A stretch of DNA of 64,000 bases from contig QEOQ01000508.1 in the NCBI GenBank assembly GCA_010279815.1, positions 4,153,342 to 4,217,341 of the forward strand. The letters are read 5' to 3'. The stretch's first letter is position 1. The number at the start of each line of letters is the position of its first letter. This stretch comes from Brachionus plicatilis (Eukaryota > Rotifera > Eurotatoria > Ploima > Brachionidae). Position numbers and translations under genes: made by a program. The notes under the pieces are model-generated. The model made no database searches. It was given only the letters and a program-made list of their open reading frames with translations, and was not told the DNA's origin. Of this stretch, positions 2,262 to 53,888 are shown piece by piece.

Positions 2262-3000
2262 TAATTATCTATAAGATTAATAGAAGAAGAAAGTGAATAG
2301 AATTTTATGCTGAGGATATTGTTTTCAATTAATTAGTCACTTGGCTACAAAATCTTTAAGAATATTGTTTCCGCACAAAGAAAAATCTTTTCAACACAAA
2401 AAAAATCTGTTCAGCACAAAGACCCCTCTTCTCAGCACCAAAAATCTAATAAGTCTAAAAAAGCTTTTTAGCACAAAAATTTTGTGTTTAAACCAAAATT
2501 TTATTTTAAAAAAAAATGCAAAATATTTATTTAATTTTTAAATTAAGTCAAATTTAATGCCTGGAATGCCATCTTTCAGCCAATTTGTTCCTTCCTTTTT
2601 TCTATATAAATTTTGGAATGTATTTTTTGTTAACTCATTTGTTGATATATAAATTTTGAAATTTTTCTTTTTTAATTTCAAATACAAAAAATTCATGCAA
2701 AATAAAATTATTGTTTAAAAACAAAATTTTTGTGCTCTAAAGCTTTTTTAGATGATTCAAATTTTTTGTGCTGAGAAGAGGGATCTTTAGTTGATCAGAT
2801 TTTTTTTACGCTAAAAAGATTTTTGTTTGTGCGGAAAAGGGAGACCCAAAATCTTTCTTTTTCCTTTTTCGCTTTATTAATTAATTTTGTTTAACTTTAT
2901 CACATAAAATAAATAATTAAATATTTTAATAAAGATTTTGAAATTTTAAAATAAGACATGGGAAATTTAGTTTTTTTTTTAATTCAAAAATAAGTAAGGT
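2262..3000 (+). repeat. Duplicate of the SPT6 3' UTR, split by a transposon
   Basis: The sequence at 2275-2345 repeats that at about 695-785 (gattaatagaagaa, then ttcaatta/gattagtcact). After the 2358-2847 insertion the similarity resumes at about 2857-2940 with 835-925 (ctttcttttt..., ttatcacaaaaaataaataattaaat). The duplicate carries no coding sequence. The parent copy is the 3' UTR of SPT6. Confidence 0.6.
2358..2847. mobile_element. GGGTCT-family mini-transposon F1 with GCACAAA iterons
   Basis: An exact 9-bp duplication, AAAATCTTT, flanks the element at 2349-2357 and 2848-2856. The right end reads AGACCC (GGGTCT outward); the left end has diverged. Both arms carry iterons of about 20-21 bp, built on GCACAAA followed by AAATCTTTTC, pointing inward. 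Left-arm copies include CGCACAAAG, ACACAAAA, GCACAAAG and GCACCAAAA; the right arm is the mirror image. A 66-codon open stretch over the left arm is just the iterons translated. No convincing protein is seen. The element interrupts the duplicated SPT6 3' UTR. Confidence 0.75.
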
Positions 3001-3016
3001 TGGCTATGAATAATAC

Positions 3017-3180
3017 AGTGCTGCTATGATACCTTGAATTCACCATATTTAACGTAAATTTTGGTATATTCACGATATTTTACCATATTACCGTAAAATA
3101 TGGTAATCTAAACAACGGTATTTTTCGTAAAATAAAGATAATTATCGTAAATTACGGATAATTGTTGAAAAATTCAGTGA
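3017..3180. repeat. MITE-like end fragment with ACGTAAA/TACCATATT palindromes
   Basis: It starts TACAGTGCTGCTATGATACC, which resembles the end of the 58090-58550 repeat (GTGCTGCTACGAT). Inverted ATATTTTACC/GGTAAAATAT motifs follow. No matching far end was found nearby, so this is a solo or decayed copy. The stretch from 3180 to 4565 is otherwise AT-rich and shows nothing convincing. Confidence 0.35.
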
Positions 3181-4565
3181 AAAAAATATTTCCAAAATTT
3201 CTCGAAAAAAACCGATTTTCATGAAAAAAAATTTTTTTTTTTGAATTATTGAAAAAGGGCAAATAGGAAAAAAAGGAAAAATGGATTTTTTATTATTATA
3301 TATCTTTTTTTAAACAAATTATGAAAATTAATATTTTAATATTATTTACAAAACAGATTTTATTTTCTAGCGTTTATTGCCTCTTTGAATATGGATCCTT
3401 TAAAATAAATTTCACATTTATTAGTTTTCCCAGATTAAGAGCTTGGCTTTTAAATCAGATCTTAAAAAAATATGATACAAAATTCAAAGACACAAAATAA
3501 AAAGTATATTAGTAGATTTGAATAAAAAATTCGAGATAAATAACTTTTATAGAAAATTAATATATTATTCAAGAAATAATTTATTTGGAACGTAGATAAT
3601 TGATATGTGAAGAAAATATTTATTTTAAGAGTATTAGTATATTTATTTTTGATAATTCAACTTCAATTATTTTTTAATCAGCTAAAAGCATTTTCATTAA
3701 ATTTTTTCAAAAATTACATACTGAAACTTAAAAAATAAAAAATTAAATAAAATTGTACAAATAAATTAAGAAAATTGAATTAAATTATACAAGGAAACAA
3801 AAGGAAAATAAAATAATTAAATATTTTTTTATTTACTTGTAAAATTTTATCTTAATTTTGCATTATTTTAATTTATTAAATATAAGTATAAAGGGGAGAA
3901 AGTCCAAAGTTAATTAATTGATTAAATAGCTTATTTAGCCATCTAATAAAAAATAACCTTAAGAATTTTTATAAAAAATGTCTCAAGAATCACCTACTTT
4001 AATACCTTATATTGATCTGCTCAATATAGATTTTAACACGCAAAATGATGTTGAAGAAGTAGAAACAAAATTTTTTTTTTTATTTCCTTGTTTTCAGAAT
4101 GATATAAAAATAAAAAATTCAAATAGAGTCAAATAAAAATCATGAGTAAAAAATAAATAAGTTTAAATATAAAGTATTAAAAAAAAAATCAAGACAAAAA
4201 TAAGTATTAATTAATTTGTTTGTTTTTTAAATTTATTTTGGGTTGTCCACATAAACAATAAATATCTACTAATAAAATCTTTAATCTACTTTGATCAATT
4301 TTTTACTCTTTTATAATAAAAAAAATTATCTTCTATAAATATGATTTATCTACTGACCAAAATTTAGCCCATTATAGAAAACCTTTATGAATGAGACAAA
4401 TCACGTGTCATTTCGTGAATATCAAACATTTACCTTTCGAAATGGTCGTTCATTTTCAATGATCATCGACCTGGCCTAGTTAAAAAAAAAATTTCAAATA
4501 ACATTTAATCCATAAAAAAAAATAATAAAATTACAAAAAAAAAAAATAATTTTATTCATAAAAAA

Positions 4566-5606
4566 ATGGCATATTCAGAAAAATCCTCGGCATTCAAAGA
4601 GGAATTGATAATCAAAGACCGCCTTTCGCTCACAGACAAGCTCAACAATTTTCTTCTATTCGTTTGGCACCCGGAACGAAAAGAAATATTTGGCAGGGAC
4701 GGACTTAGCTGGGCAAAACTTGGCCTCTTTTACGCCTGTTTTTACATGGCAATAGCGGGCCTATTCTGCACCATGCTGGCAATTTTCATGGCCATTATTG
4801 ACAAGCGAGAGCCCACCTACTACAACGACTTTAGTGTCATGTGGAATCAAAAGGTGGACACTCTGCGAGTCGGTGTCAGTCCTGGCCTCGGATTTAGGCC
4901 CCAAAAAGATTCCATCACTACTTTGATTAGAGTGAAATCAAGTGAAAAGAACATCTCTCATCCCTTCTCTTACATGCACTATGTGCGCATGATGGACGAA
5001 TTTTTAAGCACCTATCTAATAAATGACAAGCGGGGCGAACAAATAATTAACTGTGACTTCAACTCGGACCCGGACTATCTGGAAAAACAGTTCAATTTGA
5101 ACAAAGTGTGCAGGTTTGAAATAGTTGAGATGTTCGGACCGGACAATATGTGCACCCAGACCAGAAACTATGAATTTGACAAGTCAAAGCCGTGTGTGCT
5201 GCTAAAAATGAACAAAATTTATGACTGGAGACCAGAGCCCTACGGACCAGATGACAAACTTCCAGCTGAGTTGGTGCCCTATGAGGAGGTGGTGCGCGCC
5301 AACCCGAGGAACATTTTTGTGCTGTGCTTTGGCGAGAACCAGGTCGATATGGATTTTATCGGCCCGGTGACTTTTTTTTCGCGCACGCCAGATGGACAAG
5401 GCAAATATCCCATCGGGTTCATTCCCTTCTACTATTTTCCATACAAGAATCAAGATGGATACAGATCGCCGCTGGTCTTTGCCTATTTCGGTAATATTAC
5501 CACCAATGTGCTCGTCAATGTGATGTGCAAGGCATATGCTAAAAATATTTTCAGGAATAATTTGTACCGAATGGGCGCTGTGCACTTCGAGATAATCATT
5601 GACTAG
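4566..5606 (+). CDS. Na+/K+-ATPase beta subunit (nervana-like), intronless
   Basis: The 346-residue protein matches the usual beta-subunit length of about 300-350. It is the glycosylated type II membrane subunit that folds and stabilises the alpha subunit of Na+/K+- or H+/K+-ATPase at the plasma membrane. The N-terminus is cytoplasmic and contains the typical FLWHPE-like stretch (LFVWHPERKEIFGRDGLSWAKLG). One transmembrane helix follows at about residues 57-80, with the family's aromatic FYACFYMAIAGLF pattern. The ectodomain has paired cysteines (Cys-165, Cys-180 and later ones), GENQ near residue 255 and YFPY near 300, all typical positions. N-glycosylation sequons occur (for example NITT). 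The ATG at 4566 follows an A-rich leader and is the first in frame. AATAAA at 5757-5762 is the likely polyadenylation signal. Single-exon structure and much higher GC than the surroundings suggest possible retrocopy origin, but the frame is intact. Confidence 0.9.
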   Translation: MAYSEKSSAFKEELIIKDRLSLTDKLNNFLLFVWHPERKEIFGRDGLSWAKLGLFYACFYMAIAGLFCTMLAIFMAIIDKREPTYYNDFSVMWNQKVDTLRVGVSPGLGFRPQKDSITTLIRVKSSEKNISHPFSYMHYVRMMDEFLSTYLINDKRGEQIINCDFNSDPDYLEKQFNLNKVCRFEIVEMFGPDNMCTQTRNYEFDKSKPCVLLKMNKIYDWRPEPYGPDDKLPAELVPYEEVVRANPRNIFVLCFGENQVDMDFIGPVTFFSRTPDGQGKYPIGFIPFYYFPYKNQDGYRSPLVFAYFGNITTNVLVNVMCKAYAKNIFRNNLYRMGAVHFEIIID

Positions 5607-5779
5607 AGATCAACAGTTCTCACTCAGAGTTAATACAGATTCCTAATTTTTTTTATTTTTTTTTATTTTTTTTTTTTGTTGTTGATGGATTATTATTTAA
5701 AATTGAAAAAATATAGCATTTAATTGTTTTATAGTTCGATGTAAATTTTTTTTTTCAATAAAAAGATTTCAATAGAAAG

Positions 5780-6450
5780 ACAAGTTCTTCTCATTGCATC
5801 CTTTGCCTGGTATTTTTTTGAACAATTTTAAAAAACTTGAAAATTATTCAGTTGAAACTTAAGAAAAGCTTATTTTAATAAGTTATTTAATTAATTTACA
5901 ATACTGATTCGACAAGTGGAATTTACGAAAAATTACGTAAATTTACGAAATTTTTCGATATTTTACGTAAATTTTCGCAAATTTACCCTATTTTACTTTG
6001 GCAAAAAAATGGCCGAATTTTTGTAAATTTTGGTAAATTTTCACTCAAAATAAAATTTCAGAGATTCTATTGCTTTTTTGACAAAAAGAAAATTAGCGAA
6101 AATTTACGTAATTTTACGAACGTAAATCTACGTAAATTTTCGTAAATTTACCTTATTTTACGTAAATTCCACTTGTCGAATCAATACTATATTTATTCCA
6201 TATTTTAATAATAAATTGTCCTTCTAAACATGAAAATATGAGCTTTCTTTTAATTTATTGAGAAAAAGTTTTGAAAATTTTTTTTCCTAAATTTGCAAAA
6301 CTGATATTATTCTAATTAATTTTTCTAAATCTTTTTAAAATTATAAATTAAACATAATCATACTTTAAAAAAACTAAAAATCAGCAGATAGACGTTTAAC
6401 TCGATTTTGAGCATCTTTTTAAGTCAGAGAAGGATGTTCTGTACAATTAG
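5780..6450 (+). repeat. Segmental duplicate of the HIT gene 3' end and flank
   Basis: From 5780 the sequence repeats the last ~27 codons, stop and downstream flank of the HIT-domain gene (18190-18395). It then matches 19197-19385 up to about 6450. The copied coding tail reads DKFFSLHPLPGIFLNNFKKL and has no upstream part, so it is a dead fragment. The two copies differ by one insertion each: 5906-6182 here and about 18396-19196 in the parent. The fragment begins ~20 bp after the polyadenylation signal of the ATPase beta gene. Confidence 0.85.
5906..6182. mobile_element. MITE, 277 bp, perfect 22-bp inverted ends
   Basis: The inverted ends begin GATTCGACAAGTGGAATTTA and match over 22 bp. A direct repeat AATACT flanks the element (5900-5905, 6183-6188). 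The inside is made of ACGTAAATTTACG-type palindromes and has no ORF. Comparison with the parental copy at 18290-18320, which lacks it, shows that it is an insertion. Confidence 0.85.
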
Positions 6451-7560: not shown

Positions 7561-7610
7561 ATCTTTTTTTTTCAAAATAAATATTTAATAAACTTTTTCT
7601 CGTGTGTTTA

Positions 7611-8006
7611 TCTGTCAAGTCGCACTGTTAGTCCTTCCCCTCTCATTTTTTCATCCGGACTTGGGACCGGCAACGGTATGATTGCAACTCAACAGTCAGC
7701 GGCCAAAGTTACATATGGGACGTTCATCATAAACAGCGCCACTCATCCGAGCACTTAATGGCTGCGAACTCGGCAACTATTTAGACTAGCTTGGAACCAC
7801 AAACCAAGCGTATCTATATCTGGATACAAGCTTATCCAAACTAAAGACACTTTACTTTTTTCACTAAGGCTCTTGGACCCAACAGACTATCATCAGCTCT
7901 AGCTTGCAAGCCTCCTCATCCCGGCCTCTATGCGCCTGCATCATCATCACCCCTCCTCTTTTTTCACCCGGGCTTGGGACCGGCCATGTGGGCAGAGTTA
8001 ATAACA
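7611..8006. repeat. GC-richer dispersed repeat with duplicated CTTGGGACCGGC motif
   Basis: This ~400-bp island has much higher GC than its flanks. It begins and ends with near-copies of one motif: CATCCGGACTTGGGACCGGC at 7651-7670 and CACCCGGGCTTGGGACCGGC about 313 bp later. There is no long ORF. It lies on the 5' side of the minus-strand LINE at 6430-7560 and may be that LINE's 5' region, or an independent SINE-like copy. I cannot name its family. Confidence 0.45.
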
Positions 8007-8017
8007 AAGATTTTTTT

Positions 8018-9277: not shown

Positions 9278-9308
9278 CTTCAATAGATCCAATTAAAGAT
9301 TTATAAAT
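9278..9308. repeat. 31-bp target-site duplication, left copy
   Basis: It is identical to 9991-10021 (CTTCAATAGATCC... to ...TTTATAAAT). Both copies encode the same LINE peptide, IYKSLIGSIE, on the minus strand. They are therefore duplicated target sequence rather than part of the inserted element. Confidence 0.8.
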
Positions 9309-10021: not shown

Positions 10022-11030
10022 GTTTTAGACAAAATATTTAAATATTAATTAAGTTTAAACTTTAATTAAATCGTTCTTTTAATCTCATCTATTATAAAGT
10101 TGAATGTTATTTCAGAGTCAAATTTAATACCTAGAAAATCTTTAGATTTTTTGTTGGCTTTCAATTTTATTTCCATATATCTTAAGATTAAAATCAGTAA
10201 ATTAAGTGAGCATGATTTTTCAACTGAAATCTTAATTTTTCATTCAAAAGGCACTTCTCTAATTCAGCTAAATAGTTATATGTTTATCTTACTGTGACTA
10301 GGTCGTCGGCAAAAAGAAGGATTAATCATTATTGGTCTTAATTCTATTGGGAATACTGTTAAAAAACGATCTGAACAGTAAGGGACTTATTTCTGGCCCT
10401 TGAGGGACGCCTGCTTTAATTCAGTATTCACAGGTTAAATGATTATTTACATTTACTCTAAATTTTCTCTAATCCAGAAATGAGTATATCCAGTGAAATA
10501 GATGGTGTGAATATGACAAAAATATTTATTTAAATGACAAAAATAAAAATTAGTATGACAAAAAGGGCTTATTGTGTGTGGCATTGTGAAATTTCACATA
10601 ATGCTTCCAAAATAAAAAGAAAAATTTTTTTATAATTTTTTTTTCTAATGGGAGAAAACTATCAAATCTGCAAAATTGTCTACAATTTAATTGTAGAACC
10701 TAAAAAATCTACAATTCGATAACAAGGACAACAGCAATAGAATATTAATGTTTATGACTTCAATTGGTATGATGATTTTATCTAATTCATTAAGATGGTA
10801 TTTTGATTGTACTTTCAATGAGTTAGGATTCTTTTACTGTTAAATATTGGGTCTATAAAAGTTACTTTTATTCTACCTAGAATATTATTCCCTAAAAAAA
10901 TGCTAAAATAGGGAAAATCACTCGGAGTAATTTTACATTACAAAAATAAAACTGAATAAATCTAAACATTTTTTTGCAACAATGTTTGCAGCTAAGCTAT
11001 GATTGCAAAAAATTGAATTGAACAAATTAA

Positions 11031-11255
11031 AAATCAGAATCAGATGACGAAATCGACGATGATGATGATAGTGATACCACAGATTCCGACGAAGAAGTGA
11101 CTGCCCCTTTACAAAGAATTGGAACAACTTTAGAGATAGTTGAAATTGATGATGTTGTAGCACAAAAAGGTAAAAAGGAAACATGTAAAATATGCAATAA
11201 AGAGTTTGTTAGATTAAAGACACATATGACTAGAATTAATAAAAATAATGTATAA
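11031..11255 (+). pseudogene. Acidic protein with one decayed C2H2 finger, inside F2
   Basis: The open frame of 74 codons follows an in-frame TAA at 11028 and has no ATG before its acidic part, so a start exon would have to be spliced on or has been lost. The first ~25 residues are Asp/Glu/Ser-rich (DDEIDDDDDSDTTDSDEE), like an acidic activation or nuclear segment. The end reads CKICNKEFVRLKTHMTRIN: Cys-Cys-His are in C2H2 spacing, but the last histidine is replaced by Asn. The stop is at 11253-11255. It is the only protein signal in the element. No transposase is seen. Confidence 0.6.
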
Positions 11256-11303
11256 AAACTGATGAAATAACAACAATTAATTGATATAATTAAATAATTG
11301 ATA

Positions 11304-12068
11304 TACCCTAATGCCTTGCCCCCTAATGCGGCATTTATTTTCAGAATTCTGGATTTTAATGCATGCATTTAACCCACTTTTTTTCCAGATACGCTGCGAC
11401 TAAAAATGCTGCAGTTAATGTCAAAATTTTGGTATAAATGCCGCATTAAATATGTAGAAAATAATAAAAATATATTTTTCTATTATTTCTAAATTTGAAA
11501 CACAAAAAATGTTCTTCGGACATAATGCATGCATTTGAAGTTAAAATTTTGAGTTTTAATGCTAGTTTATTAAATTCATTTTTAACACTTTTAAGTGTCC
11601 AATTTTTTTTTTATAATTTTTATAACTATTATCATAATTCTTACAATTATATTCATAACTGCAGCATTCAAAATAAAAAAAAGATCATGCTAAAAATATA
11701 ATTCATATAATTTTTTTTAAAAACAAATAATTTTTATACGGAAAATTTTATGCCATTTTTATATTAAAATACCGTTTTTTTTATCAATTTAAATAAAATT
11801 TCGTGACGCATTAAAACTCAAAATTTTAACTTCAAATGCATGCATTATGTCAGAAGAACATTTTTTTTTGTTTCAAATTTAGAAAAAATAGAAAAATATA
11901 TTTTTATTATTTTTAAATATTTAATGCAGCATTTATACCAAAATTTTGACATTAACTGCAGCATTTTTAGTCGCAGCGTATCTGGAAAAAAAAGTGGGTT
12001 AAATGCAGCATTAAAATCCAGAATTCTGGTTTAAAGTGCAATGCATTAGGGGGCAAGGCATTACGGTA
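11304..12068. mobile_element. Nested DNA element, ~260-bp inverted arms rich in ATGCxGCATT
   Basis: The ends are TACCCTAATGCCTTGCCCCC and, from the right, TACCGTAATGCCTTGCCCCC, flanked by an exact 7-bp duplication ATTGATA (11297-11303, 12069-12075). The arms are near-perfect inverted repeats of about 260 bp. They contain regularly placed ATGC(N)GCATT palindromes joined to AGAATTCTGG, GATACGCTGCGAC and similar blocks. The ~240-bp centre has no convincing ORF. It is inserted just after the zinc-finger ORF of F2. Confidence 0.85.
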
Positions 12069-12986
12069 ATTGATAATATGAATAAAATATTTTCTATTAA
12101 ATTACTTTTTTAGCATTTTTTTAGGAAAAAATATTCTAGGTAGAATAAAAGTAACCTTTTCAGACCCAAAAAAATATTGAGTCTATATATAAATATTTAG
12201 AATATTTAGGATAGAGTAAAAAGGACGGCACCTCTTTCAATTAAGCATTTCCATCAAATATTCTTGATCCATGGCTGCTATCAAAACCGAATGTTTCCAA
12301 TGTGTTATTTTCTTTCAAGAAACAAGTAACCAGAAACATATCAGTGATTTTTTTTTCATATTTTCTTTGTTTATTTTGTCATTTAAAAATTTTTTATAAT
12401 AATTTTTTTTTAATTAATTTTTTTTATCCCATTTCGCAATACATTTTCTTCTGCTTGTTTACTGCTAGAAAAGTATCGCCTATGGATTTCCAAAGAATTT
12501 TATTTTTTAAATTTTTTTAAAAATGAAATAAATTGTATTTTTTTTAAAATGAAGAAAATTCTAAGCGTTCTGGGTTTCAATTGGTGAAGTGTTAATTTTC
12601 CATTCTATCAAAACGAAATGCACAGGCAATCCAACTAGCTCAAAAATATCTATTTAATCTAATAAAAATAACACTGTCCAAAAATATAGTTTATTCAATT
12701 TGAATTTAATTAATCTATTAAAGCATTTTATTTTTTTAGAATCTAATAAACAAAAACCTTTTCTAAAAAAACCTCTATCTAAACCAAAGGGAATAGAACT
12801 GCTCCATTTCTTCTCATATATTTTTGAACATCTTTTCCAGAGAGTCTTGAGTAAAATTTTTATTGCGCAAAATAAATATCAAAGATTATATTTCTAAAAT
12901 AATTGAATATCGTAAATAGCTTCTTGATTTCATATACTACCAAAGAACAATTAAAAAATATTAAAAAATTTAATTCCCAAATTCAA

Positions 12987-16561: not shown

Positions 16562-16570
16562 AATAAGATT

Positions 16571-17139
16571 GGGTCTATCTAGTCCCCACAAACAAAAAAC
16601 TGTCACCCACAGATCAAAAACTGCTCTCCACAAAAAAAAACTTCCTAGCAAAAATTTTTTTAAAATATCAATTAAAAACTGCCACTAAATATTTTATATA
16701 ATAAAATGCCAATGATTTTACGTAATAAAAAAAAATTTCAAAATTTTAGGAGATTAAAAAATCCAAAAAAATAAAAACGAAAAAAAAGAACAATGACAAT
16801 TCATTGAATAATGCAGGGCCAATATTGTATGAGAATCCGACGAATTTGTTAATAAACCGAAAAAGGTCGTCCAAAATTAGCTGGAAATTGGTTTTCCTTA
16901 AAATAAGTTTTAATTTAATTATTTTATTAATTTAATATTTAATTTTTTTTATTTATAATTCTATAAACAATATTTGAATAAATTATATAACAAATTTATT
17001 AAATTGTGTTATTTGGTTAAATATGTAAAAATTATTTATTTTGAATTTGACACAAAAAATTGTGTTTTTTAGTGATTTGTGTTAAAAAGTTTTTGGTTTG
17101 TGGGAAACAGTTTTTTAATTGTGGGGAACCATTTATCTC
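16571..17139. mobile_element. GGGTCT-family mini-transposon F3 with CCACAAA iterons
   Basis: It is flanked by an exact 9-bp duplication, AATAAGATT (16562-16570, 17140-17148). The left end is GGGTCTATCTAG; the right end has diverged (GAGATAAATG outward), but both lead after 13 bp into CCCCACAA. The arms hold iterons of 20-22 bp built on CCCACAAAxxAAAAACTG, three to four per side, pointing inward. The centre contains a decayed ORF: EFVNKPKK followed, after a one-base shift, by GRPKLAGNWFSLK, a K/R-rich patch with the GRP core of an AT-hook. This peptide is related to the one encoded in F4 (37800-37952). Confidence 0.8.
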
Positions 17140-17334
17140 AATAAGATTGCATATTTTTGGAACTAAACCAAGAGACTATTTTTGGACCCAAGAAAAAAGT
17201 TAAACCGATATTCGAATCATATGATTAAATAATTTTTATGTTAATGAACTTCCCTTTTTTATAAACACAGTAACTTAATTTTTTTTCAAAAATTGAATAT
17301 TTCAAATTTTATTTTAAATTTAAATTTGATTTTC

Positions 17335-23166: not shown

Positions 23167-23169
23167 GGT

Positions 23170-32400: not shown

Positions 32401-33846
32401 CAGTGGTGATTTGACACTAGGGTTTTTACCTTTTTTTACGTAAAATTACGTAAAATTACGTAAATTTACCACTTTTTACGTAAATTTTCGTAATTTTACA
32501 CTTGTAAGGACTGGTAAATTTACGTAAATTTACGCAATTTTACGAAATTTTACGATAATTTTCGAAAAAACTGGTAAAAACAAAAGGGCCAAAAAAAAGC
32601 CAATTTTCAAGCAATTTCTTAGAATTTTTGGAAAATTTCAAAAAAACAAAAAAATTTTTAAAAAAAAAAATTTACATTTTTTTACGTAAATTTACGTAAA
32701 ATCCGAATTTTTTAATTGTAAAATTTTGTAAAAAATTGTAAAATATGGTAGATTCATGTAATATCGCTTTAAATCAAAAAAAGTGTTGTTAATTTTATTT
32801 TGTAAGAATAAAAAGGAAAAAATTTTTTTTCAATATATAATTAAATCTTTATCTTTTAGTCCATTAAACTTTACTTAAATAAACAAAAAAAAAGTCATTT
32901 CAAAAATTTATTGAATAATTCGTTCAAAAATTGATTATTAGTTTTATGTTTTTCTAGCTTTTAAATTTACTGAACGCTGTGTTTTCAACGAATTTCTAGC
33001 TTTTTCAAATGCCTTTTCAAAAGTTTCTCCACTAGGAACAAATTTTGTTAAGCGTTCTAAATTTAAAAAAAATTATTTTCTTAAATATGAACAAAAAGAC
33101 TTTTAAGTTTACCTTTAATTTCTATGAATTTTTTAAAGTCTTTATTCCTATAAAAAGTTATTGTCTCATGAAGCTCTTCTGGAAATTTCTCTTGAATCAA
33201 ATTTTTTAATTCCTGGGTAAAGTCCTTTTGGGTGCCTTAAAATTTTTCTTATAAAACAATAAAATTAAATTAATTATTCATTGAGACTATATTTAAGTTC
33301 CAAAAAATTTTAACACCTAAAAAATGTTTATCATATATAAGTCATTTAAAAAAGGTATTATTAAAAAAAAAATTTGACTCAAAACAAAATTAATTATTTA
33401 TTTAGGTTATCCCAATTGTGATTCAAAATAATGGAGACTGGTCAAATCATTAATTTTTTCCATTTAAAATAGTCTGATTTATTAAAATAAAAATATTTAC
33501 TGTACTTTACAATTTTTTACAAAATTTTACAATTAAAAAATTCGGATTTTACGTAAATTTACGTAAAAAAATGTAAATTTTTTTTTTTAAAATTTTTTTG
33601 TTTTTTTGAAATTTTCCAAAAATTCTAAGAAATTGCTTGAAAATTGGCTTTTTTTTGGCCCTTTTGTTTTTACCAGTTTTTTCGAAAATTATCGTAAAAT
33701 TTCGTAAAATTGCGTAAATTTACGTAAATTTACCAGTCCTTACAAGTGTAAAATTACGAAAATTTACGTAAAAAGTGGCAAATTTACGTAATTTTACGTA
33801 ATTTTACGTAAAAAAAGGTAAAAACCCTAGTGTCAAATCACCACTG
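32401..33846. mobile_element. Tc1/mariner-like element with ~340-bp inverted arms and a captured spliced ORF
   Basis: The ends are CAGTGGTGATTTGACACTAG in inverted orientation, flanked by TA on both sides (32399-32400, 33847-33848), the target duplication of the Tc1/mariner/pogo group. The arms, nearly identical over about 340 bp, are filled with ACGTAAATTTACG words. The centre (about 32750-33500) carries no transposase but a minus-strand reading frame with two good introns (see 32944-33235). The near-identity of the arms points to recent activity or conversion between arms. Confidence 0.85.
32944..33235 (-). CDS. Spliced ORF of unknown function inside the 32401-33846 element
   Basis: On the minus strand, exon 33235-33113 and exon 33056-32944 join across a 56-bp intron with gtaaac...ttag borders and stay in frame to a TAA at 32946-32944. 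An acceptor (ttttaag) precedes the first exon, so a 5' exon is missing from this model. A candidate start exon beginning MEKINDLTSLHYFESQ lies near 33462 but lacks a good donor. The visible ~78 residues are charged, with TQKDFTQELKNLIQEKFPEE, ETITFYRNKDFKKFIEIK and then a basic tail rich in Lys/Arg (KAFEKARNSLKTQRS). I do not recognise a domain. It could be a captured host gene fragment or an accessory protein of the element. Confidence 0.5.
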
Positions 33847-33848
33847 TA

Positions 33849-37525: not shown

Positions 37526-37593
37526 TACAGTCGAGTTCGGTTATAACGAACTTACTTCGAAACTCTCAAAATGGTTCGTTATAAACGAACTTC

Positions 37594-38304
37594 GGGTTTG
37601 TTGTTTTAACATACATCAAAATCTTCTCAACATACATTCATATCTTTTCAGCATACACAAAATTTTTCAAAACATACATTAACTTAAAAACATACAAACA
37701 TGCTAAAAAACATACATACTAGCTTAAAAACATACAAAAATTGGCATATTAAAAAATAAAAAATTTAAATTTAAAATTATTTTCAAAAAATTTAATAAAA
37801 TGAATAGACGGACAAAACAAACAATTAATTATAAATATAAATTATGTGGTCATTTATTAGCACTAGAATCATTATTAAATGCACGTGAATTTGTAAATAA
37901 GCCAAAAAAAGGAGGTCAAAAAAAGTCTACTAAATCATTAGAAAAAGATTAGTTAATTATTAATTTTTGACTTTTATTATCAAATTTAATTAAATCGAAT
38001 AAAACATTTTTTTTTAAAGTTTATTACTAAATTTTTGTATTTTGAAAATTAAAATAAATCGTCTCTTTTATTTAAAAATAATTCTTTTATTTATCTGCTA
38101 AAATTAAACAGGACTAAATTTAAAAGTGATTTTTTTAAAAAACCAGTATGTTTGTTAGCAATCTGTTTGTTTTTCAGCCCTATGTATATTTTTAAGAATT
38201 TTGTATGATTTTCAGCAAATGTATGTTTTGATAAAAACTACGTATAGTGAAAAGATTTGAATGTATGGTGAAAAGATTTTTATGTATGTTGGTCAGCTAG
38301 ACCC
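37594..38304. mobile_element. GGGTCT-family mini-transposon F4 with AACATACA iterons
   Basis: It is flanked by an exact 9-bp duplication, ACGAACTTC (37585-37593, 38305-38313), which is pogo-element sequence. The ends are GGGTTTG and AGACCC. Each arm has about six or seven iterons spaced about 20-21 bp, built on AACATACA with AAAATCTTTTC between the outer ones. Left-arm repeats start at about 37608, 37629, 37650, 37671 and onward; the right arm mirrors them. The centre encodes a 50-aa basic protein (37800-37952). No transposase is present. Confidence 0.85.
37800..37952 (+). CDS. 50-aa basic protein of F4 (AT-hook-like patch)
   Basis: An ATG-initiated frame of 50 codons and a TAG stop. It starts MNRRTKQTINYKYKLCGHLL and ends in a lysine-rich patch EFVNKPKKGGQKKSTKSLEKD. 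The KPKKG(G/R) core matches the decayed peptide in F3 (EFVNKPKKGRPK), which has the GRP of an AT-hook. It contains one Cys and no zinc-binding pattern. It lies centrally between the two iteron arms. That two unrelated-looking copies share this peptide argues that it was once under selection. The function is unknown; minor-groove DNA binding is an inference from the basic patch. Confidence 0.45.
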   Translation: MNRRTKQTINYKYKLCGHLLALESLLNAREFVNKPKKGGQKKSTKSLEKD

Positions 38305-38350
38305 ACGAACTTCGTTATATCCGAAACATAAAAAAAGATTAATTTTTTGA

Positions 38351-38563
38351 TTAATGTTTGTCTGCCGCAAGTACATTTTCTTCACACAATTTCAAAATTT
38401 CATCACGACGTTTGTATATGCCAGACATAGTGCCTGGCGGTATTTTGTACTCATCGCAAATTTGAGTTTGAGTCTTTTCCTTGCTATCAATAAGCTTGAT
38501 AAATTTAACTTTTTGACTCAAGGTAAAAATTTTTCGTTTCGTTGCTTGACTTCTAGAATTCAT
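38351..38563 (-). CDS. 70-aa pipsqueak/CENP-B-type helix-turn-helix protein of the pogo element
   Basis: The frame runs ATG to stop with 70 residues: MNSRSQATKRKIFTLSQKVK, then FIKLIDSKEKTQTQICDEYKI and PPGTMSGIYKRRDEILK. This is the N-terminal HTH of Tigger/pogo transposases and CENP-B (the usual pattern is a K-R-...-L-x-x-K-x-x-I/F-I, followed by a recognition helix with TxSxIxKxRxxI). A complete pogo transposase has about 450-550 residues with a second HTH and a DDE domain; here a stop follows directly after the first HTH and nothing of the rest is seen in the element. It could bind the element's own ends without cutting. The frame is intact, so recent or preserved expression is possible. 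Confidence 0.7.
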   Translation of the reverse strand: MNSRSQATKRKIFTLSQKVKFIKLIDSKEKTQTQICDEYKIPPGTMSGIYKRRDEILKLCEENVLAADKH

Positions 38564-38899
38564 TTTTTTTTATTAATTGAGGATCATTTTCTTTTAATTT
38601 TTATAGATAAATGTGTGAATTTTCTCCGATAAAATTAACCGTCTTATGGTTAATTGACAGATAAAGATTAGGATTCAAAAAAAAATCATACTTTTTTGTC
38701 AAGTTCGTTATAAAAAAATAAATTCTACTGAGAATTTTTAAAAAGACTTCGTTATAACCGAGTTTTCGTTATAACCGAGTTCGTTATATCCGTAAAAAAT
38801 AACATTATAAAGATTGTTGTTTTACAATCTATTGAATTTTTTTTCGCTATAACCGATTGTTCGTTATAAGCGTTTTCGCTATAACCGAACTTGACTGTA

Positions 38900-42880: not shown

Positions 42881-42884
42881 CATT

Positions 42885-45345: not shown

Positions 45346-48300
45346 ATGAATGAACAGGAATTTGTTCATAACCCAAGTCCATTACCTGAGACCGGATTTT
45401 TCTCCAAGCTGACATTTAGCTGGATAAACCCTCTGCTAAAACTTGGTCGTAAAAAACAACTGCAATTGTCTGATTTATATAGTCCAGTGTATGATGATGA
45501 AGCTGAAAAAATAACTGAAGAACTTGAAAAGTAGTCTTTTTAATTAAATTTAAAAAATAAAAATAAAATTTTCCAAAAAAGAGAATGGATCAATGAGCAA
45601 AAGACTCATTCAGAGCCAAGTTTGGCAAGAGTGTTGATGAGATGGTATAGAAGAAAAGCGATTATAAATGCTTTATTTATAATATTTCAAGTAAAATATT
45701 TATTTTTTTTAAAGTTAAATACAATTCCAATTTAAAGGAAATAATAAAAATAATCCAGCCATTGTTTATTTCTATAATTCTGCGGTATTTTAATGGAACA
45801 ATGGAAATTACAGAAGCTTTAATATATGCTGGAGTCATTTCGGTTTGTTCTATAATTGTAGGCATCCTGCACCATCCGTACTACTTGAACGCTTGTCGAT
45901 ACGGGATGAGGCTGAGGGTAGCAAGTTCTGGTTTGATTTATAAAAAAATTTTGCGACTAAGCTTAAAAACCTTGGATTCAAAATCAGCTGGAGACATTAT
46001 AAACTTATTGTCGACTGATGGTACTAGGATAGAATATGGCATTTATTATTTGCCATATCTAATCACAGGTCCCATTCAAATGGTGATTGTGATCGTAATT
46101 ATTTACCTTGAAGTTGGATTTACTTTTTTGGCTGGTCTCTTACTATTGGCACTGATTGTTCCGGCAAAAGCTTTCATTGTCAGACAATTTAATAAATACA
46201 GATCAAAAAACTGTCAAAAAAGTGATGAACGAGTAACTGTATTGACTGAAATTTTGAATAGTATTAAAATAATTAAAATGTATTGTTGGGAAATACCTTT
46301 TAGCAAAAAAGTAACTGATTTAAGAAAGTAAGTTAATTTTATCAGAGAAAATTTTTTTTTAATTTAATTTAATTTAGCCAAGAACTGCGCTATCAAACTC
46401 TTTTAAATCTAGTCCAATCTCTTACAGCTACCATTGATACAATAATGGCAACTCTAATGTCTTTTTTGAACATTTCCTTTTTCATTGCATTCGCAGGTAT
46501 TCCTCTGGTTCCGAGCTTCATTGTCTTCTCAATTGGCTTTTATATGCGTTTGTGTAATTCAGTTGGATTTAACTTTTCGAGAGCTGTTGTCTCTGTGGTC
46601 AACTTTAGAGTGAGTGCCAAACGTGTGGGTGATTTTTTGCTCATGAAAGAACTTGACATGAAACCAGTGCCTGTTCCCAATGATCCAGATCTAGCTATAG
46701 AAATAGAAAATTTAAATTTTAGTTGGAAACAAGATGAATTTAGTCTAAAAAACATAAATGTCCAAGTCAAAAAAGGAGATTTTGTTTCAATTGTTGGACC
46801 AGTTGGTTCAGGAAAAGTAAAAGAAATTTTGTTTTTTTGTTTAGATTTTTATCTTTTTTGTTGAGTCTAGAGCTCTCTGTTACTTGGCATTGTTGGTGAA
46901 TTGGAAAATTACAGTGGAAAAATTTTTAAAGATGGAAAAATATTTTATTTAACTCAACAGCCATGGGTTTTTACAGCAAGTATTCGACAAAATATAACTT
47001 TTGGTCTGCCATACATCAAAGAAAAATTTGATAAAATTGTAGAGGTGTGCTCTTTGAAAAAAGTAATTAAATTTATATTTTAATTAAATTAGATTATTAA
47101 TTAATAATTGATTTTAGGATCTTGAGCTGTTGACTTATGGTGAACAGACTTTGGTCGGCGAAAAGGGAATCAATCTTAGTGGAGGACAAAGAGCACGCAT
47201 CTGTCTGTATGCATATAAATTAAAATCAAATAATTTAAGCATTTGGTGACATGTTTTTTGATAATAGTTATCTTTCTATTTTATCATCACGTTGCATGTC
47301 ATCAAATGATTTATTTATACTTTTTATTATTTATTAGTAAAAATAAATTTTTCACATTTTAGAGCACGAGCTTTATATTCTGATGCAGACATTTATCTAT
47401 TTGATGACACATTAAGTGCGGTCGATGGAACAGTAGCGAAAAATATAATGAAAAAGTAAGAATTCATATACAGTGTTTAAAGTTTAACTTAATAAAGTGT
47501 AAGATTACACCATTTTACGTAATTTTACGTCATAAAATGTAATTTACATAATAATACATCATTTCTTGTATGTAAGAAAATGTATTCAATATTATCTTAC
47601 GTAATTTTACGTAATATTACACTAGTTTAGTACTTTTTCTTACAATTAGCCCTCTTACAATGTAATTTTCTGTCATATTTTTTAAGTAAAGTAAATATTA
47701 GGAAAGTACCCATATTTTTTTTATAAAATTCAAATTTTTATTAATTTTTCACTTTTTACTCTAAAATTCAGTTTTTTTGGCCATAAGCGTTTTTGACGAA
47801 ACTTTGTTAAACTAGTGTTATTTTAAGTAAAATACTTAAGATTATGTTATCTTACATTTTCTTACATACAAGAAATGATGTAATATTATGTAAGCTTACA
47901 TTTTCTGGCGTAAAATTACGTAAAATGATGTAATCTTACCCATTATACAGTTTAACTTTAAACACTGTATTTTTAACTAAAATGACCCTATTTTTATTTA
48001 AAGATGCATTAATGGATACTTGAAATACAAAACCAGGATTTTGATTACACATCAAGTTCACCATTTAGAAACTGCAGATATAATCTATGTCATAAAAGAT
48101 GTACTTTATTAATTATAAAAACATTAAAAATTTTAAGTAAATAAGTAAATAAGTAAATAAGTTTTTTTTTAATTAAAAGGGAACAATAGAAGCTGAAGGA
48201 AAATATAATGATTTGTTGAAATCTCACCTAGCTGAACTTAGCAGCATGGAAGACGCTGAATCTGGAGGTGACTTTGACTCAATGGAGGAAATACCCGACG

Positions 48301-50918
48301 AAAAAGCAGAGTCTAAAAAACGAGAGGCAAATCAGCTACCAGAAGATTTGAAAGCAAAACAAGATGTAAAGTTGAAAATATTGAAATAAAAATTATTTTG
48401 AATTTATTATTTATAGCTTATTAAAAAAGAAAGAGAAGAAGTTCAGCAGAAAGGTGCCGTAGGATGGAGCGCTTATATTGCTTATTTCACTGCTGGATTC
48501 GGATATTTGGGTGTAATAGTTGTCATAGTTCTTTTTATTGCAGCTCAAACAATGACAATTTCTGCCGATTATTGGCTGTCTATTTGGTCAAATTTGGAAG
48601 AAGAATTTGAAAACAAACAAAAGCTAATTAAAAGCTGTCTACAAAATTTGGAAACTCAAAATGTGAATTGTACCCAGATACTTTTTGATATTGACTCAAA
48701 TACTGATCCATCTTCAATCAATTTAATTTATGATGATAGGGAACGATCTTACAAAATTTATTTAAGTAAACAAAAATTAAATTTAATAAAAAAATTAAAA
48801 AAAAAAAAAAATTTTAGCGCTGGTATGCATTGCTTTTTTTGTGGTCGCAGTTCGTTCGGTTGCCTTCTTCATGCTTTGTGTAAAAAATTCCAAGAATACT
48901 TACCAAAAATTGTTTGCTAGTGTTAGAGATACAACCATTAGATTTTTCGATCTTAATCCGATAGGTAAGACAAAAGTAAAAAAATTTTCAAGAAAAAATT
49001 TTTTTTCTTTTTAGGAAGAATTTTGAATCGTTTTTCCAAAGATACAAACAACATGGATGAAATGCTTACTCTTTATTTGTATGAATTTTGTCAAGTAAAA
49101 AAAAGCAAAATTTATCAAATTAAATTTAAAAATTTAAATTTCAGATATTAATGGTAATTGTTGGGGCTTTAGTTGTTCCTATTTCAGTTAATCCATGGAT
49201 GCTATTGCCTTTAATACCTCTTGGATTAGCTTTTTATGTGATTCAAAATTATTTTGTGTCAACCGCCCGAGAATTAAAAAGACTTGACAACATTGGTCGA
49301 AGTCCAATATTTGTGCATACAAATACATCTATTGAGGGTATTAGTACAATAAGGGCGGCTAGCAAAGGTCAATTATTGACAAGTGAATTTTACTCACATT
49401 ATGACTACCATACAAGGGCTTACTTTGGCTTTTTTGTTGTTCATCGATGGTTCGGATTGCGGCTGGACTTTTTATGCTCTTTGTACACTATTATGACTCT
49501 ATTTGCTTGTATTTTTTTAAGAGGTAAATCAATTTTTTTATAAAAATAAAATTAAAAAAAAATATTATTTAGATAATCTTGGACTAAAATCTGGTCAAAT
49601 CGGTCTGCTAATGGTATATTTATTTCAGTTGTTTGATTTGTTTCAATGGTGTGTTGTTTTATCAACTATGGTTGAAAATTTGGTATTTTTTATTTTTTTG
49701 AAAATTTGGTGAATTTATTTTAATTTGAACAAAAAAAATTTAGATGACCTCAATTGAACGAATTGTTGAGTACACAAACATACCATCTGAGCCATTGAGA
49801 GAAGGAAAAATTGAACCTCCGATCAATTGGCCAACTAGTGGAGAAATTGAATTTGATAAAGTTTCATTAAATTATGACAAAAATTTGCCAAGTGTTCTCA
49901 AAGAAATATCACTGAATATAAGACCGGGAGAAAAAGTTGGAATTGTGGGCAGAACAGGAGCTGGAAAGTCTTCATTTTTTCAAGCAATCTTTAGAATGTA
50001 TGAACCTTTTGGAAAAATATTCATTGATGGAGTTGACATTACCCAGCTAAGCTTGAACAATCTACGAACAAAATTGACCATAATTCCGGTAGGAAATAAA
50101 ATAAATTTATATTTAATTTTGATAAAATTTTTCAAATTCTTATTCAAGCAAGAACCAGTCTTATTCTCTGGAACACTCAGACTCAACTTGGATCCTTTTG
50201 GTAAATACTCTGACCAGGAAATATGGTATGCCGTCGAGTCTGTCAGTCTAAAAAACAGTGTTCAATCGATGAATTCAGGTCTTGATTCATTAATTACAAC
50301 TGGTGGTACCAATTTGAGTGTAGGCCAAAAGCAACTCATTTGTTTGGCAAGAGCTATTTTAAAAAAGACTAAAATCTTGATCATTGATGAAGCAACTGCC
50401 AATGTGGACTATAACACAGATGCCATCATTCAAAAGACAATACGAGAACAGTTTAAAGATTGCACGGTTCTAACTATTGCTCACCGTTTGGCCACTGTTG
50501 TTGACAGTGATAGAATATTAGTGAGTTTTTTTAAGGCTGTATTTTGATTTTTTATGATTAAAATTTTTATTTTTAAAAGTGTTTGTCAGAAGGTAAAATA
50601 GTTAATTTTGGTATTCCAAAAGAGTTGTTGAGTGACGAAAATTCCATTTTATATGAGCTTACAAAAAAATTGTCACCAAATGAAAAGAAGCTAATTTTTG
50701 ACATTGCCAATGGTGAAAAAAAAGTTGATCTAGCTCTAGATATTGTTCCGATTGAGAATGATAATGAAATGATGATGGAAACAAAATCAGTAAAGTCTTT
50801 TGTCTATGAAAATAAAGGAGTCGATTTTTCTGATGAAGAAATAAGTTTGTTTCATCCAAGTGTACAGTCTAAATCAAATTTTTCCATAGGCAAAAGTGAA
50901 TTAGAAGCAAGATTTTAA
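45346..50918 (+). CDS. ABCC (MRP4-like) transporter, copy A, 17 exons
   Basis: My exon model: 45346-45530, 45582-45690, 45738-46327, 46378-46816, 46871-47062, 47118-47206, 47363-47455, 48004-48100, 48180-48365, 48417-48765, 48818-48964, 49015-49094, 49145-49523, 49573-49682, 49744-50088, 50149-50520, 50580-50918. All joins keep frame with GT..AG, giving 1366 residues, close to human ABCC4 (1325). It is a short-type multidrug-resistance protein without TMD0: TMD1, NBD1, TMD2, NBD2. NBD1 has GPVGSGK (435-441), LSGGQ (525-529), Walker B ending FDD (549-550; Asp replaces the catalytic Glu, as usual in ABCC) and His-582. NBD2 has GRTGAGKS (1084-1091), LSVGQ (1186-1190) and IIDE (1210-1211), so one canonical ATP site. 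Family members export organic anions, cyclic nucleotides and conjugates across the plasma membrane. Intron 7 holds a MITE. AATAAA is at 50954-50959. A paralogue with the same exon plan lies at 58999. Confidence 0.9.
47471..47967. mobile_element. MITE (mariner-type ends) in ABCC copy A intron 7
   Basis: The ends CAGTGTTTAAAGTTTAACTT and, from the right, CAGTGTTTAAAGTTAAACTG are flanked by TA on both sides. Near-matching arms contain AAGATTACACCATTTTACG and TTTTACGTAATTTTACG. There is no ORF. Copy B's intron 7 (61539-62009) does not contain it, so it arrived after the ABCC duplication or was lost from B. Confidence 0.85.
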
Positions 50919-52393
50919 AATATTTTTGTTCTAGTTGTTAAAATATTGGCTTAAATAAAGTTTGTATTTATTACCTAAAATAAGAAAATGAATTGTTGAG
51001 AACTTTTTTTTTTTCCAATGATCTAAAATGTCAAATTTTTTAATTAAAATTTTAAAATGTTTTAAACTAATTTATTGATTTCAAGATTAATTTTAAAACG
51101 AAAAAAAACAAAATCCCCTAACTTTGGCAATTTTTGAACTTTTTCGATCTGTAATAGCCAAAAGCTTAGAAACTCATGAAAGCTCATGAAATTTTTTTTT
51201 CAGTCTGTAAAAAAATTTAGAACATTTAGGACATGAGCTTTATTTTGGTGTATTAAACTTCGAATTTGATCATAAATTGAGGAAGTTGGGTTCTCTAGGC
51301 TAACATTTTCAAATTCCTTTTTTTTTTTAATTTTTTTGGCTTAAAAAATCATCAAATGCTGATTACTTTTCGAAAAAAATTTATTTTGATTCTGTAAAAA
51401 GCAGTAGACTCAGTGAATTCTAAGCTTCAGTTTGGTACCATTTTCATTCCTTTTGGATTAAAATTAAGTGAGCTAGGCCTTACTAAAATTTTAATTCTTG
51501 AAAAGAGCCCATAATTTTAAAAACAGCATAACTTTGTTAATACTAAATTTTTTTTCAATCTTTAAAAAAGATTTAGGACATGAGCTTTATTTTGGTGTCT
51601 TAATAAAGATAAAAAAGTGGAAATAAAGAAGTGTTGAGGAAATAAAGAAGATGAGTAATGTAGCAATTCCACAATGGAGTATGATCGTTCTTGTTAATTA
51701 TTTTGGCGCCCTATTTTAAGTCATAGTCACTGAAATTGATGTCCAAGCCAGTCTTTAAGCTGACTTAAGACTTTTATACAACTCTTTTTTTTAATGTTTT
51801 CTTTTAAATGTTTAACTTTTTGTTTATTTCTTGATTTTTAGATTTTTAAATGAAAAAAATATTGATGTAACGTTTAGACAACATAACTCTTAATTTAACC
51901 CGAACCACAACAAAATTATTGCTAATTTTTTTGGTTATACAAAAAATTTTTTTCTTTTACAATTGAAAAAGCGAAAAATTAATCTTATATTTTCAATTTA
52001 ATAAATCGATAAGTGTATAAGTAAAAGATTAAATAAAAAAAATTTTAATTCAAAAATATTTTTTTATAAAACATTTGTCCTTTATTTAATTTTACAATTT
52101 TTATTTACAATTAAATAATTTTTATTGATATTTTGCAGAATCTTTATAGAAATCAATATAGATTATTTATTGTAATTAGAAAGAATTTTTAAAATTTTTT
52201 TGTAGAATATTTACAGAAAAGAGCAGAAATTATGAAGAAAAAGCGTTCGAAATTCAACAAAAAATCTGTAAAAATACCTTTAAAGATTCTACAAAATATC
52301 TGTTAAATTGAGTTGACTGGGTGTCATTTTTAATTTAAAATTAGATTAGTTTTAAAGTTTAATAAGTTTTAATTAATTTTAGGAAAAAAAAAG
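50919..52393. other. Intergenic stretch with a duplicated ~30-bp word
   Basis: No gene is supported between the ABCC stop and the minus-strand PAN gene. A stretch reading TTTAGGACATGAGCTTTATT (51226-51250) recurs at about 51570-51595 with its CAGTCTGTAAA/CAATCTTTAAA flank. This suggests a decayed repeat of about 345-bp period. Confidence 0.4.
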
Positions 52394-53888
52394 TTATTTT
52401 ATAAAAATGTATTTTTTGTATTTGGTGTCATATAAGCTGACTAAATTCCCAAGACGCCATCCGGGAGGGCCATCTAAATGCCATGAAAGACGAAATGGGT
52501 TTAATTGGTCAAATGTATCTGCGTCAGTTTGAGCTATTGTATAATTTGGAGAAAAACCAAAGCTTTCTCCAGGAGTCATGTACCAATAGGCAGAGCCAAT
52601 TTGGACTGGTTGATTGCTGACAGTTGTTGTCAATACTGAATAGCAGTTTGCGCATGCAACAAGCTTCAACACATCAGAGCCTTCAAGTCCTCCACCAGCA
52701 CACAACATGGAGCTGCTATTACAAAAGTTATCCTTCACGTTAGTTAGATTACTGGTCATAGTTGATTGCGAATATTTTTGATCAAATGCCAGCTTAAACC
52801 CTAGGTAGCACAATGAACTTATGGGAAAATCAATGGTTAAACCGGGAGGTGTTACTAGAATAAAAAAATATTTGCATCAAATGGAATAAGATGCTCCTAT
52901 TTAAGGGTCTGTTGCGTTATGTGATCACTGGTTCACATAAAAGGTGAACCAACTTACCCAACCTAAATAAGTGATCAGTTGTGTTCACTTTTTAGGTGAA
53001 CCAAAAATATGTGTACTAATTAATTAAAATTTTTTTCAAAATAATCACCTAAATTAAATTGTGTTCACCTAAAATAAAAAGTGATCACCTAAAATGATAA
53101 TTACCAAAAAAATTATGACAAAGTAAATAAAAATTTGATTTTTCAAAATTTTAGCTTTAATAAATAGTCATCTTATTTTAAAAAATTGCAAAACTTTTGC
53201 ACTAAAAATATTAAAATTACAATAAAATGCTTGAAATAATAATTTAAGAATACTTATGAGAATAAATTTTCTTCATCTAGAAGAAATTGTAAAAATAACT
53301 TTAAATAACAAAAAAGATCCTATAAAATGTGATTTTTGTGGAAATTATTTTGAAAAAAATGGTCTCAAGAGACACATTACTGTCAAGCATAAGAATCAAT
53401 AAAAAAATTTTTTTTGGCTCACTTATTTTTTTTTACATGACTAATAATTTTCTCACCTATTTTTTTGTTGGCTCACCTATAATTCAAAAAAATTAAAAAA
53501 TAAATTTTGATTTTCGAAATAATTTTTTTTGTGCACATATTTTTGGTTCACCTAAAAAGTGAACACAACTGATCACCTATTTAGGTTGGGTAAGTTGGTT
53601 TACCTTTTATGTGAACCAGTGATCACATAACGCAATAGACCCCTATTTAAGCTTACGGTGAATTTTTTTTTCTTCTTTAGACCACAAATGCCCATCCATG
53701 GCTGATGCGTCACTATTTGTAACTGAAGTATACAAAATACATTGAGTGTCCCTGTAATACACATTTCTACATTGATTGTTTTTAGAACAATGCGAAAAAC
53801 ACTGCATTCGGCTATTTGACTTAATTGTCTTATTCAAGATTGTTGAGCATCCAAATAAGATGGGCTTTGATTTGTTGTTAATTTTCAT
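52394..53888 (-). CDS. PAN/apple-domain protein, two exons seen, transposon in its intron
   Basis: On the minus strand, one exon runs from upstream to 53657 and ends before gtaag; the next is 52854-52394, after tattctag. The join C|TA keeps frame. I give the first in-frame Met (53888, MKINNKSKPILFGCSTI) as the visible start, but the frame is open to 53957 and an upstream exon with a signal peptide is likely. The first exon holds a PAN/apple-type module: GCSTILNKTIKSNSRMQCFS, HCSKNNQCRNVYY, CILYT, with the usual C-x-x-x-C and closing C. The second exon has a cysteine-containing linker (NCYSVLTT, CAGGGLEG) and a conserved-looking C-terminus (YWYMTPGESFGFSPN, LSWHLDGPPGWRLGNL). PAN domains bind proteins or glycans outside the cell. 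The intron is almost entirely the F5 element (52905-53642); without it the intron would be ~55 bp, typical here. Confidence 0.65.
52905..53642. mobile_element. GGGTCT-family mini-transposon F5 with TTCACCTAAAAT iterons and a zinc-finger ORF
   Basis: The ends GGGTCTGTTGCGTTATGTGA and, from the right, GGGTCTATTGCGTTATGTGA are inverted repeats continuing for over 100 bp with few changes. The flanking duplication is CTATTTAA (52897-52904 and 53643-53650), readable as 8-10 bp because of the run of G/C at the junctions. The arms contain GTGATCAC and AGGTGAACC words. The inner left arm has iterons about 21 bp apart (AATCACCTAAAT, GTTCACCTAAAAT, GATCACCTAAAAT). The centre encodes one complete C2H2 finger (53256-53402). 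It lies in the intron of the PAN gene. Confidence 0.85.
53256..53402 (+). CDS. 48-aa single C2H2 zinc-finger protein of F5
   Basis: An ATG-to-stop frame of 48 residues. After a short N-terminus (MRINFLHLEEIVKITLNNKK) comes one canonical finger, CDFCGNYFEKNGLKRHITVKH: C-x2-C-x12-H-x4-H with the structural Phe and Leu in place, then KNQ and stop. It is on the strand opposite to the host PAN gene and sits between the two iteron arms of F5. A single finger reads about 3-4 bp, so specificity would need dimers or repeated sites, which the ~21-bp iterons would provide. A spliced upstream exon cannot be excluded. There is no other coding signal in the element. Confidence 0.6.
   Translation: MRINFLHLEEIVKITLNNKKDPIKCDFCGNYFEKNGLKRHITVKHKNQ

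Follow-up and report, generated by a model that had tools for sequence, protein, structure and literature searches.

Mini-transposons with GGGTCT ends in a Brachionus plicatilis contig belong to the Mutator-like and Merlin superfamilies and not to one family

Five short elements, named here F1 to F5, lie in a stretch of 64,000 nucleotides of the rotifer Brachionus plicatilis (contig QEOQ01000508.1, positions 4,153,342 to 4,217,341; hereafter the window), and an initial annotation had taken them for a single family of mini-transposons with GGGTCT ends and interchangeable iterons. The five elements are real, but they do not belong to a single family. Three of them, F1, F3 and F4, are Mutator-like elements (MULEs), F5 is a Merlin element and the GGGTCT words of F2 are internal; therefore, the hexamer is carried by two unrelated superfamilies, MULE and Merlin. 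The suggestion of a Mutator-like nature thus holds for F1, F3 and F4 and fails for F5, which has an IS1595-type transposase and an 8-bp duplication. Overall, we consider it probable that F1, F3 and F4 are internally deleted MULEs and F5 an internally deleted Merlin element, that the MULEs share a pair of unlike tips (A and B), and that their family-specific iteron words, set on a 21-bp grid, are sites for each family's own transposase. The genome searched is AT-rich and comprises 102.9 Mb in 173 contigs. Copy counts are lower bounds, with at least 31 candidates found for F4 (31 scored), at least 70 for F1, at least 247 for F3 and at least 45 for F5 (40 scored in each of the last three).

The link to a full-length element was obtained most directly for F4, whose features in the window are as follows.

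37585..37593, no strand: left target duplication of F4, ACGAACTTC, read in the sequence
37594..38304, plus strand: F4, internally deleted MULE with ACATACA iterons in both arms, defined by tips, copies and iterons; tip B at the left, GGGTTTGTTGTTTT, and tip A at the right, GGGTCTAGCTGACC, minus strand
37800..37952, plus strand: 50-codon open reading frame (ORF) of F4, transposase N-terminus joined to the last 39 residues, from comparison with the ORF of locus L007
38305..38313, no strand: right target duplication of F4, ACGAACTTC, read in the sequence

The left end of F4 reads GGGTTT and the right end GGGTCT. Its arms were found again at C73:45281-45770 and 48088-48348, around a MULE domain that had been detected independently (locus L007). 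The partner so delimited, C73:45281-48348, is 3,068 bp long with TTTAATGAA on each side, and it answers the proposal to look for a full-length relative that carries a MULE transposase and has the ends of F4. Its transposase is encoded in two neighbouring open stretches, one of 420 codons and one of 404 codons that is still open where the locus ends, with an apparent GT-AG intron between them; a Pfam search identified MULE in the first stretch (E 1.7e-14) and gave no match for the second. The C-terminal part of the F4 ORF is identical to the L007 ORF at 38 of 39 residues, its start resembles the L007 N-terminus, and the deletion junction coincides with a short A/T microhomology. That is, compared directly with its partner, F4 derives from a MULE by internal deletion. 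Counting the window copy, F4 has 16 full-length matches, of which 14 show 94-100% identity and several 98-100%, so that the family is young. The F4-type transposase has nine database relatives, and the six that are named are all Brachionus proteins; the best is from B. calyciflorus (49% identity over 98% of the query), and another is a B. plicatilis protein with 95% identity over 26%. F4 is surrounded in the window by TTCGTTATAACCGAA-type repeats (37530-38888), one of which includes its duplication ACGAACTTC.

F1 and F3 are built in the same manner, and what they retain of a transposase is shorter.

2349..2357, no strand: left target duplication of F1, AAAATCTTT, 9 bp, read in the sequence
2358..2847, minus strand (that of the transposase remnant): F1, internally deleted MULE, defined by tips, copies and remnant; tip B at the left, AAGAATATTGTTTC, and tip A at the right, GGGTCTCCCTTTTC, minus strand
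2557..2601, minus strand: remnant of a MULE transposase C-terminus in F1, 15 codons, 93% identity to the ORF of locus L073
2848..2856, no strand: right target duplication of F1, AAAATCTTT, read in the sequence
16562..16570, no strand: left target duplication of F3, AATAAGATT, read in the sequence
16571..17139, plus strand: F3, internally deleted MULE, defined by tips, copies and remnant; tip A at the left, GGGTCTATCTAGTC, and tip B at the right, GAGATAAATGGTTC, minus strand
16833..16903, plus strand: remnant of a MULE transposase C-terminus in F3, frameshifted, from ORF comparison
17140..17148, no strand: right target duplication of F3, AATAAGATT, read in the sequence

These short coding remnants suggest that F1 and F3, too, arose by internal deletion of MULEs. 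The MULE domain in a full-length member is that of the F4 partner, F1 and F3 having only the C-terminal remnants; the longer F1 relative, L073, also has a SWIM-like CxC...CxH motif. The exact 9-bp duplications described earlier around three elements were re-read in the sequence as AAAATCTTT for F1, AATAAGATT for F3 and ACGAACTTC for F4. Family copies were tallied with one row per copy having both ends and flanks, the others lacking an end or a flank (loci entering the tally: F4 21, F3 21, F1 11, F1b 8, F1c 8 and F6 3). Exact duplications of 9-10 bp were present in 16 of 20 copies of F4, 5 of 6 of F1 (the sixth being 8 bp), 4 of 4 of F1b, 2 of 4 of F1c and 2 of 2 of F6. A strict scan for 9-bp duplications caught only F4 in the window and nothing in the genome loci; it missed the other window elements because the tips are unlike and the F5 duplication is 8 bp.

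The comparison covered seven MULE families (F1, F1b, F1c, F3, F4, F6 and C48), F6 and C48 being represented by one element each. C48 is a decayed full-length MULE of 2,784 bp with CAACACAA words, tips A and B, ATAATTTAC on each side and a MULE match at E 4.5e-11. An F6 member with GCACAT words directly adjoins it, and further F6 copies occur at L131, L132 and L134. In these three copies transposase parts are kept and different middle pieces are lost; the N-terminal half has short tandem repeats.

Every element of these families has two unlike 14-bp tips, which are conserved across the seven families and are not complementary within an element. By eye, the consensus of tip A approximates GGGTSTNCCTANYC and that of tip B RRGAWTATTRTTTC. 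In arm consensuses that include one F1c copy twice, positions 1-14 show identities between families of 0.73 (A with A) and 0.63 (B with B), and of 0.44 between A and B within an element. At positions 15-66 the relation is turned round, with 0.57 and 0.51 between families and 0.81 between the two arms of an element. The two arms of an element are inverted repeats of each other behind the tips (0.54-1.0 identity at positions 15-66) but not over the outer 14 bp. This contrast between tip and arm was reached in none of 2000 column swaps, a test that optimises the labels A and B, originally assigned by eye, in observed and null data alike. A 21-mer of tip A has 42 genome matches, and its reversed control none. 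GGGTCT-like ends, at least one per copy, had been attributed to all five elements; the hexamer is present at both ends of F5, at the right end only of F1 and of F4 and at the left end only of F3, while the F2 words are internal. The single-ended occurrence in the three MULEs is not decay of one copy, because the copies of each family retain one and the same pair of unlike tips. A genome search by the distance between GGGTCT and AGACCC was not discriminating: GGGTCTN{300,330}AGACCC occurred at 15 places, and its control at 15 as well.

Behind the tips, the iteron words of the MULEs begin near positions 17, 38, 59 and 80. The first of these sites was left out of the grid figure because matching of the ends partly imposes it; at positions 27-95 in six families, 214 of 237 words lay within one base of the grid, compared with 13% expected under a uniform distribution, and in the C48 element six of six words were on the grid. 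With the one F1c copy again counted twice, the words point inward (32.9 inward vs 0.6 outward, summed with a weight of one per arm type), and a 110-nt arm holds 3.0-4.4 words of its own family and 0.03-0.5 of those of other families. The sequence between the words diverges more freely, as judged by eye. The iteron word is thus fixed within a MULE family and differs between families. The idea of interchangeable iterons in one family is therefore abandoned, and the words differ between elements because several distinct MULE families are present. Of the four elements described as carrying inward iterons about 21 bp apart, F1, F3 and F4 do so. The layout in F5 is different: TCACCTA occurs three times at a spacing of 20 bp, 141-187 bp inside the left end and in the left arm only.

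F5 belongs to the second superfamily, and its duplication, noted in the initial annotation for a further element, is 8 bp and not 9.

52897..52904, no strand: left target duplication of F5, CTATTTAA, 8 bp, read in the sequence
52905..53642, plus strand: F5, internally deleted Merlin with near-identical GGGTCT ends, defined by ends and copies
53256..53402, plus strand: 48-codon ORF of F5, C2H2-like tail of a Merlin transposase, 40/42 identity to the ORF of locus L048
53643..53650, no strand: right target duplication of F5, CTATTTAA, read in the sequence

Among 30 F5 loci, 25 copies have both ends, and in 23 of these the duplication is exactly 8 bp. A longer relative, L048, spans C4:1674461-1676964 and contains pieces of an IS1595-type transposase in several frames, with ORFs matching DDE_Tnp_IS1595 at E 2.7e-10 and 1.4e-6. 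F5 derives by internal deletion from such a Merlin element. An independent Merlin, L130, has GGGTCT ends, an 8-bp duplication and an open frame of 463 codons (DDE_Tnp_IS1595, 7e-21), and the Merlin L128 has GGCGCTACC ends and an 8-bp duplication. L128, L129 and L130 all match DDE_Tnp_IS1595 at 7e-21 or better, and that Merlin family has 38 genome matches. The transposases of L128, L129 and L048 finish with an acidic stretch and then a tail that is C2H2-like by eye, and that of L130 has a basic tail; Pfam C2H2 models fell below the cut-off for L048 and none was listed for L128 and L129. Zn_Tnp_IS1595 was not listed at E<=0.1 for the L048 pieces, L128, L129 or L130, but CxxC pairs could be made out by eye in the N-terminal part of the last three. 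A B. plicatilis protein matches the Merlin tail with 90% identity over 56%. A GGGTCTTGCCTGTTATGTGACC end, as in mini-element L001, was seen at position 662 of L015, close to an unrelated MULE gene, and several such Merlin-like end types are present in the genome.

These observations suggest how the MULE mini-elements could be mobilised. The conserved RNase H-like core of the transposase would cut at the tips and insert with a 9-10 bp stagger, while a cysteine-bearing N-terminal region would bind the iterons, spaced by two helical turns, along the same face of the DNA and would load from each tip inward. The mini-elements would then be moved by transposase supplied from full-length copies, and F5 would be mobilised likewise by a borrowed Merlin transposase. 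Arrays of short transposase-binding words inside both ends are a feature of hAT and CACTA elements, which are other superfamilies with other duplication lengths. The N-terminal region may be the reader of the iterons. Those of L007 and L023 have cysteines in common, and the L007 region is, over the matched parts, 39% identical to that of L023 and 35% to that of L134, each of which goes with a different word. A further possibility, put forward tentatively, is that addressing is modular. An old pair of non-equivalent tips, each of which marks one end for the MULE core, would go together with an exchangeable iteron word on a fixed two-turn lattice and with a fast-changing N-terminal reader. A change of word would then give rise to a new family unable to move the mini-elements of the old one.

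Several results weigh against assigning the words to each family's own transposase, or against parts of that explanation. Among the MULE families a full-length partner with an open frame was found for F4 only. Tip A lies downstream of the transposase in F4 and upstream in the six other families, that is, the tips have no fixed orientation to the gene. Only 5 of 17 F3 copies have exact 9-10 bp duplications, with 6 more showing one mismatch. The autocorrelation of arms that had been proposed as a check proved weak for single arms (P<=0.02 in only 4 of 18), although the register from the tip is strong. The L007 N-terminal region gave no Pfam match, and its structure model was poor (mean pLDDT, predicted local distance difference test, of 53) and matched no solved fold (best E 1.3). 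Finally, the pairs of N-terminus and iteron in L007, L023 and L134 fit the idea of a reader, but three pairs are too few to show co-change. In a comparison of L007/L065 with L023/L126, the F4 gene is inverted relative to the tips with respect to F6, as if the interior had been flipped.

Other explanations of the shared features were considered. The initial proposal, a single mini-transposon family of five elements that share a GGGTCT end and have interchangeable iterons, is extremely improbable. The hexamer is indeed held in common and the window copies are alike in size and layout, but the elements divide between two transposase superfamilies and two duplication lengths, on which grounds a single GGGTCT family was rejected; moreover, MULE and Merlin ends cease to be identical beyond the hexamer, and the GGGTCT of F2 is internal. 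The exact hexamer in both kinds of element in one genome, at both ends in the Merlins F5 and L130, could also reflect capture of ends between superfamilies or a shared host factor. This we regard as quite unlikely, given that the identity ends after six bases, that the L128 Merlin has GGCGCTACC ends and that Merlin ends, as characterised in PMC8101967, generally begin with GG, as do those of F5 (5'-GG). We take the GGGTCT start in both superfamilies as convergence or chance upon a common GG start, and not as descent.

For the iteron words, the nearest analogue of family-specific arrays, as far as described in PMC5735166, is the VANDAL/VANC system of plants, in which VANDAL elements carry family-specific arrays of non-coding motifs bound by VANC proteins. 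By analogy, the rotifer words might be sites for a separate anti-silencing protein, which appears unlikely. In the part of the F4 partner within L007, no further ORF of at least 60 codons was seen except transposase parts, antiparallel frames and one edge-crossing frame (about 0.2 kb in L065 lay outside the scan), and a VANC-type second gene was not found in that part of this one element tested; in addition, the words keep their register with the cut at either end of the element, a better fit to end recognition. It is likewise improbable that the grid has no function and arose only because a 21-bp unit was duplicated in tandem. The arms of F1, F3 and F4 do contain called tandem repeats with units of about 20-21 bp, but one register from the tip is kept in both arms of seven families with different words, and by eye the sequence between the words is freer to diverge. 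Sites for the family's own transposase remain our preferred explanation of the words.

MULEs are described as having 8-11 bp duplications, SWIM and other fingers and long arms, with clades tabulated (PMC6446971). The rotifer elements share with the SWIM-finger MULEs presented there the MULE domain, a SWIM-type CxC...CxH motif (by eye), duplications of 9-10 bp, long arms and non-autonomous deletion derivatives, but they differ in that their outermost 14 bp form two unlike, conserved tips and not a matching inverted repeat, and in that the words, which change from family to family, keep a strict 21-bp register from the tip. With the VANDAL elements of Arabidopsis, in the account of PMC5735166, they have in common MULE families with different arrays of short motifs in non-coding DNA; there, however, the motifs are spread over non-coding regions and bound by the separate VANC protein, whereas the rotifer words are in register with the element end and the L007 part of the F4 partner showed no VANC-type gene. 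Merlin elements are characterised by GG ends and 8-9 bp duplications (PMC8101967). The DDE_Tnp_IS1595 domain, 8-bp duplications and GG-starting ends of F5, L130 and L128 agree with the Merlin/IS1595 elements treated in that source, from which the C2H2-like tail (by eye) of L048, L128 and L129 and the family-specific repeated arm words differ. Literature searches found no publication on these rotifer MULE or Merlin elements, nor on unlike tips of MULEs, and the terms Merlin, MULE and Mutator are absent from the main text of the Brachionus/rotifer genome papers PMC6555955 and PMC11954553.

The way in which a transposon family changes its address, and so sheds its parasitic mini-elements, is difficult to investigate. 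In these MULEs the tip and the address are seen to evolve separately, and there is a young family, F4, together with a candidate transposase gene with open frames. A terminal hexamer in common does not amount to kinship, since duplication length and coding remnants alone separate the MULE from the Merlin mini-elements here.

F2 stands apart from the other four elements, and its probable limits are drawn from a bracketing repeat and mirrored arms.

10812..10819, no strand: likely left target duplication of F2, CTTTCAAT, 8 bp, one copy only
10820..12233, no strand: F2, likely true limits, from the bracketing CTTTCAAT and mirrored arms
11303..12093, no strand: separate, highly repeated element nested in F2 and outside its family, from genome matches
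12234..12241, no strand: likely right target duplication of F2, CTTTCAAT, one copy only

F2 had been regarded as GGGTCT-ended, which was rejected: mirrored arm sequence continues outward past its GGGTCT words (in the window at 10849 and 12162-12167). This was seen at the two ends in L082, and at a single end in L083, in L133 and in the window copy. The limits 10820-12233 are likely, judging from the one window copy. The lack of a clear period in F2 noted earlier was borne out, none being seen in a periodicity test of its arms. A small ORF of F2 terminates in a C2H2-like motif, as in Merlin; it has 4 genome matches, none with a transposase, and no full-length F2 was found. The nested element at 11303-12093 has inverted arms of about 260 bp, and pieces of it are 88-98% identical in most of 40 scored candidates.

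Elsewhere in the window, 32430-33820 holds a near-perfect inverted repeat (60/60 bases, several frames) with TTTACGTAAA-type 10-bp repeats, and similar sequence lies near 5920-6168 and 58464. A 459-bp stretch at 47490-47948 has inverted arms and the 9-bp repeat AGTTTAACT on both sides, and is possibly a mini-element with TTTTACG-type words. The regions 45651-50918 and 59812-63669 contain neighbouring ABC-transporter-like genes that are near-identical in some exons.

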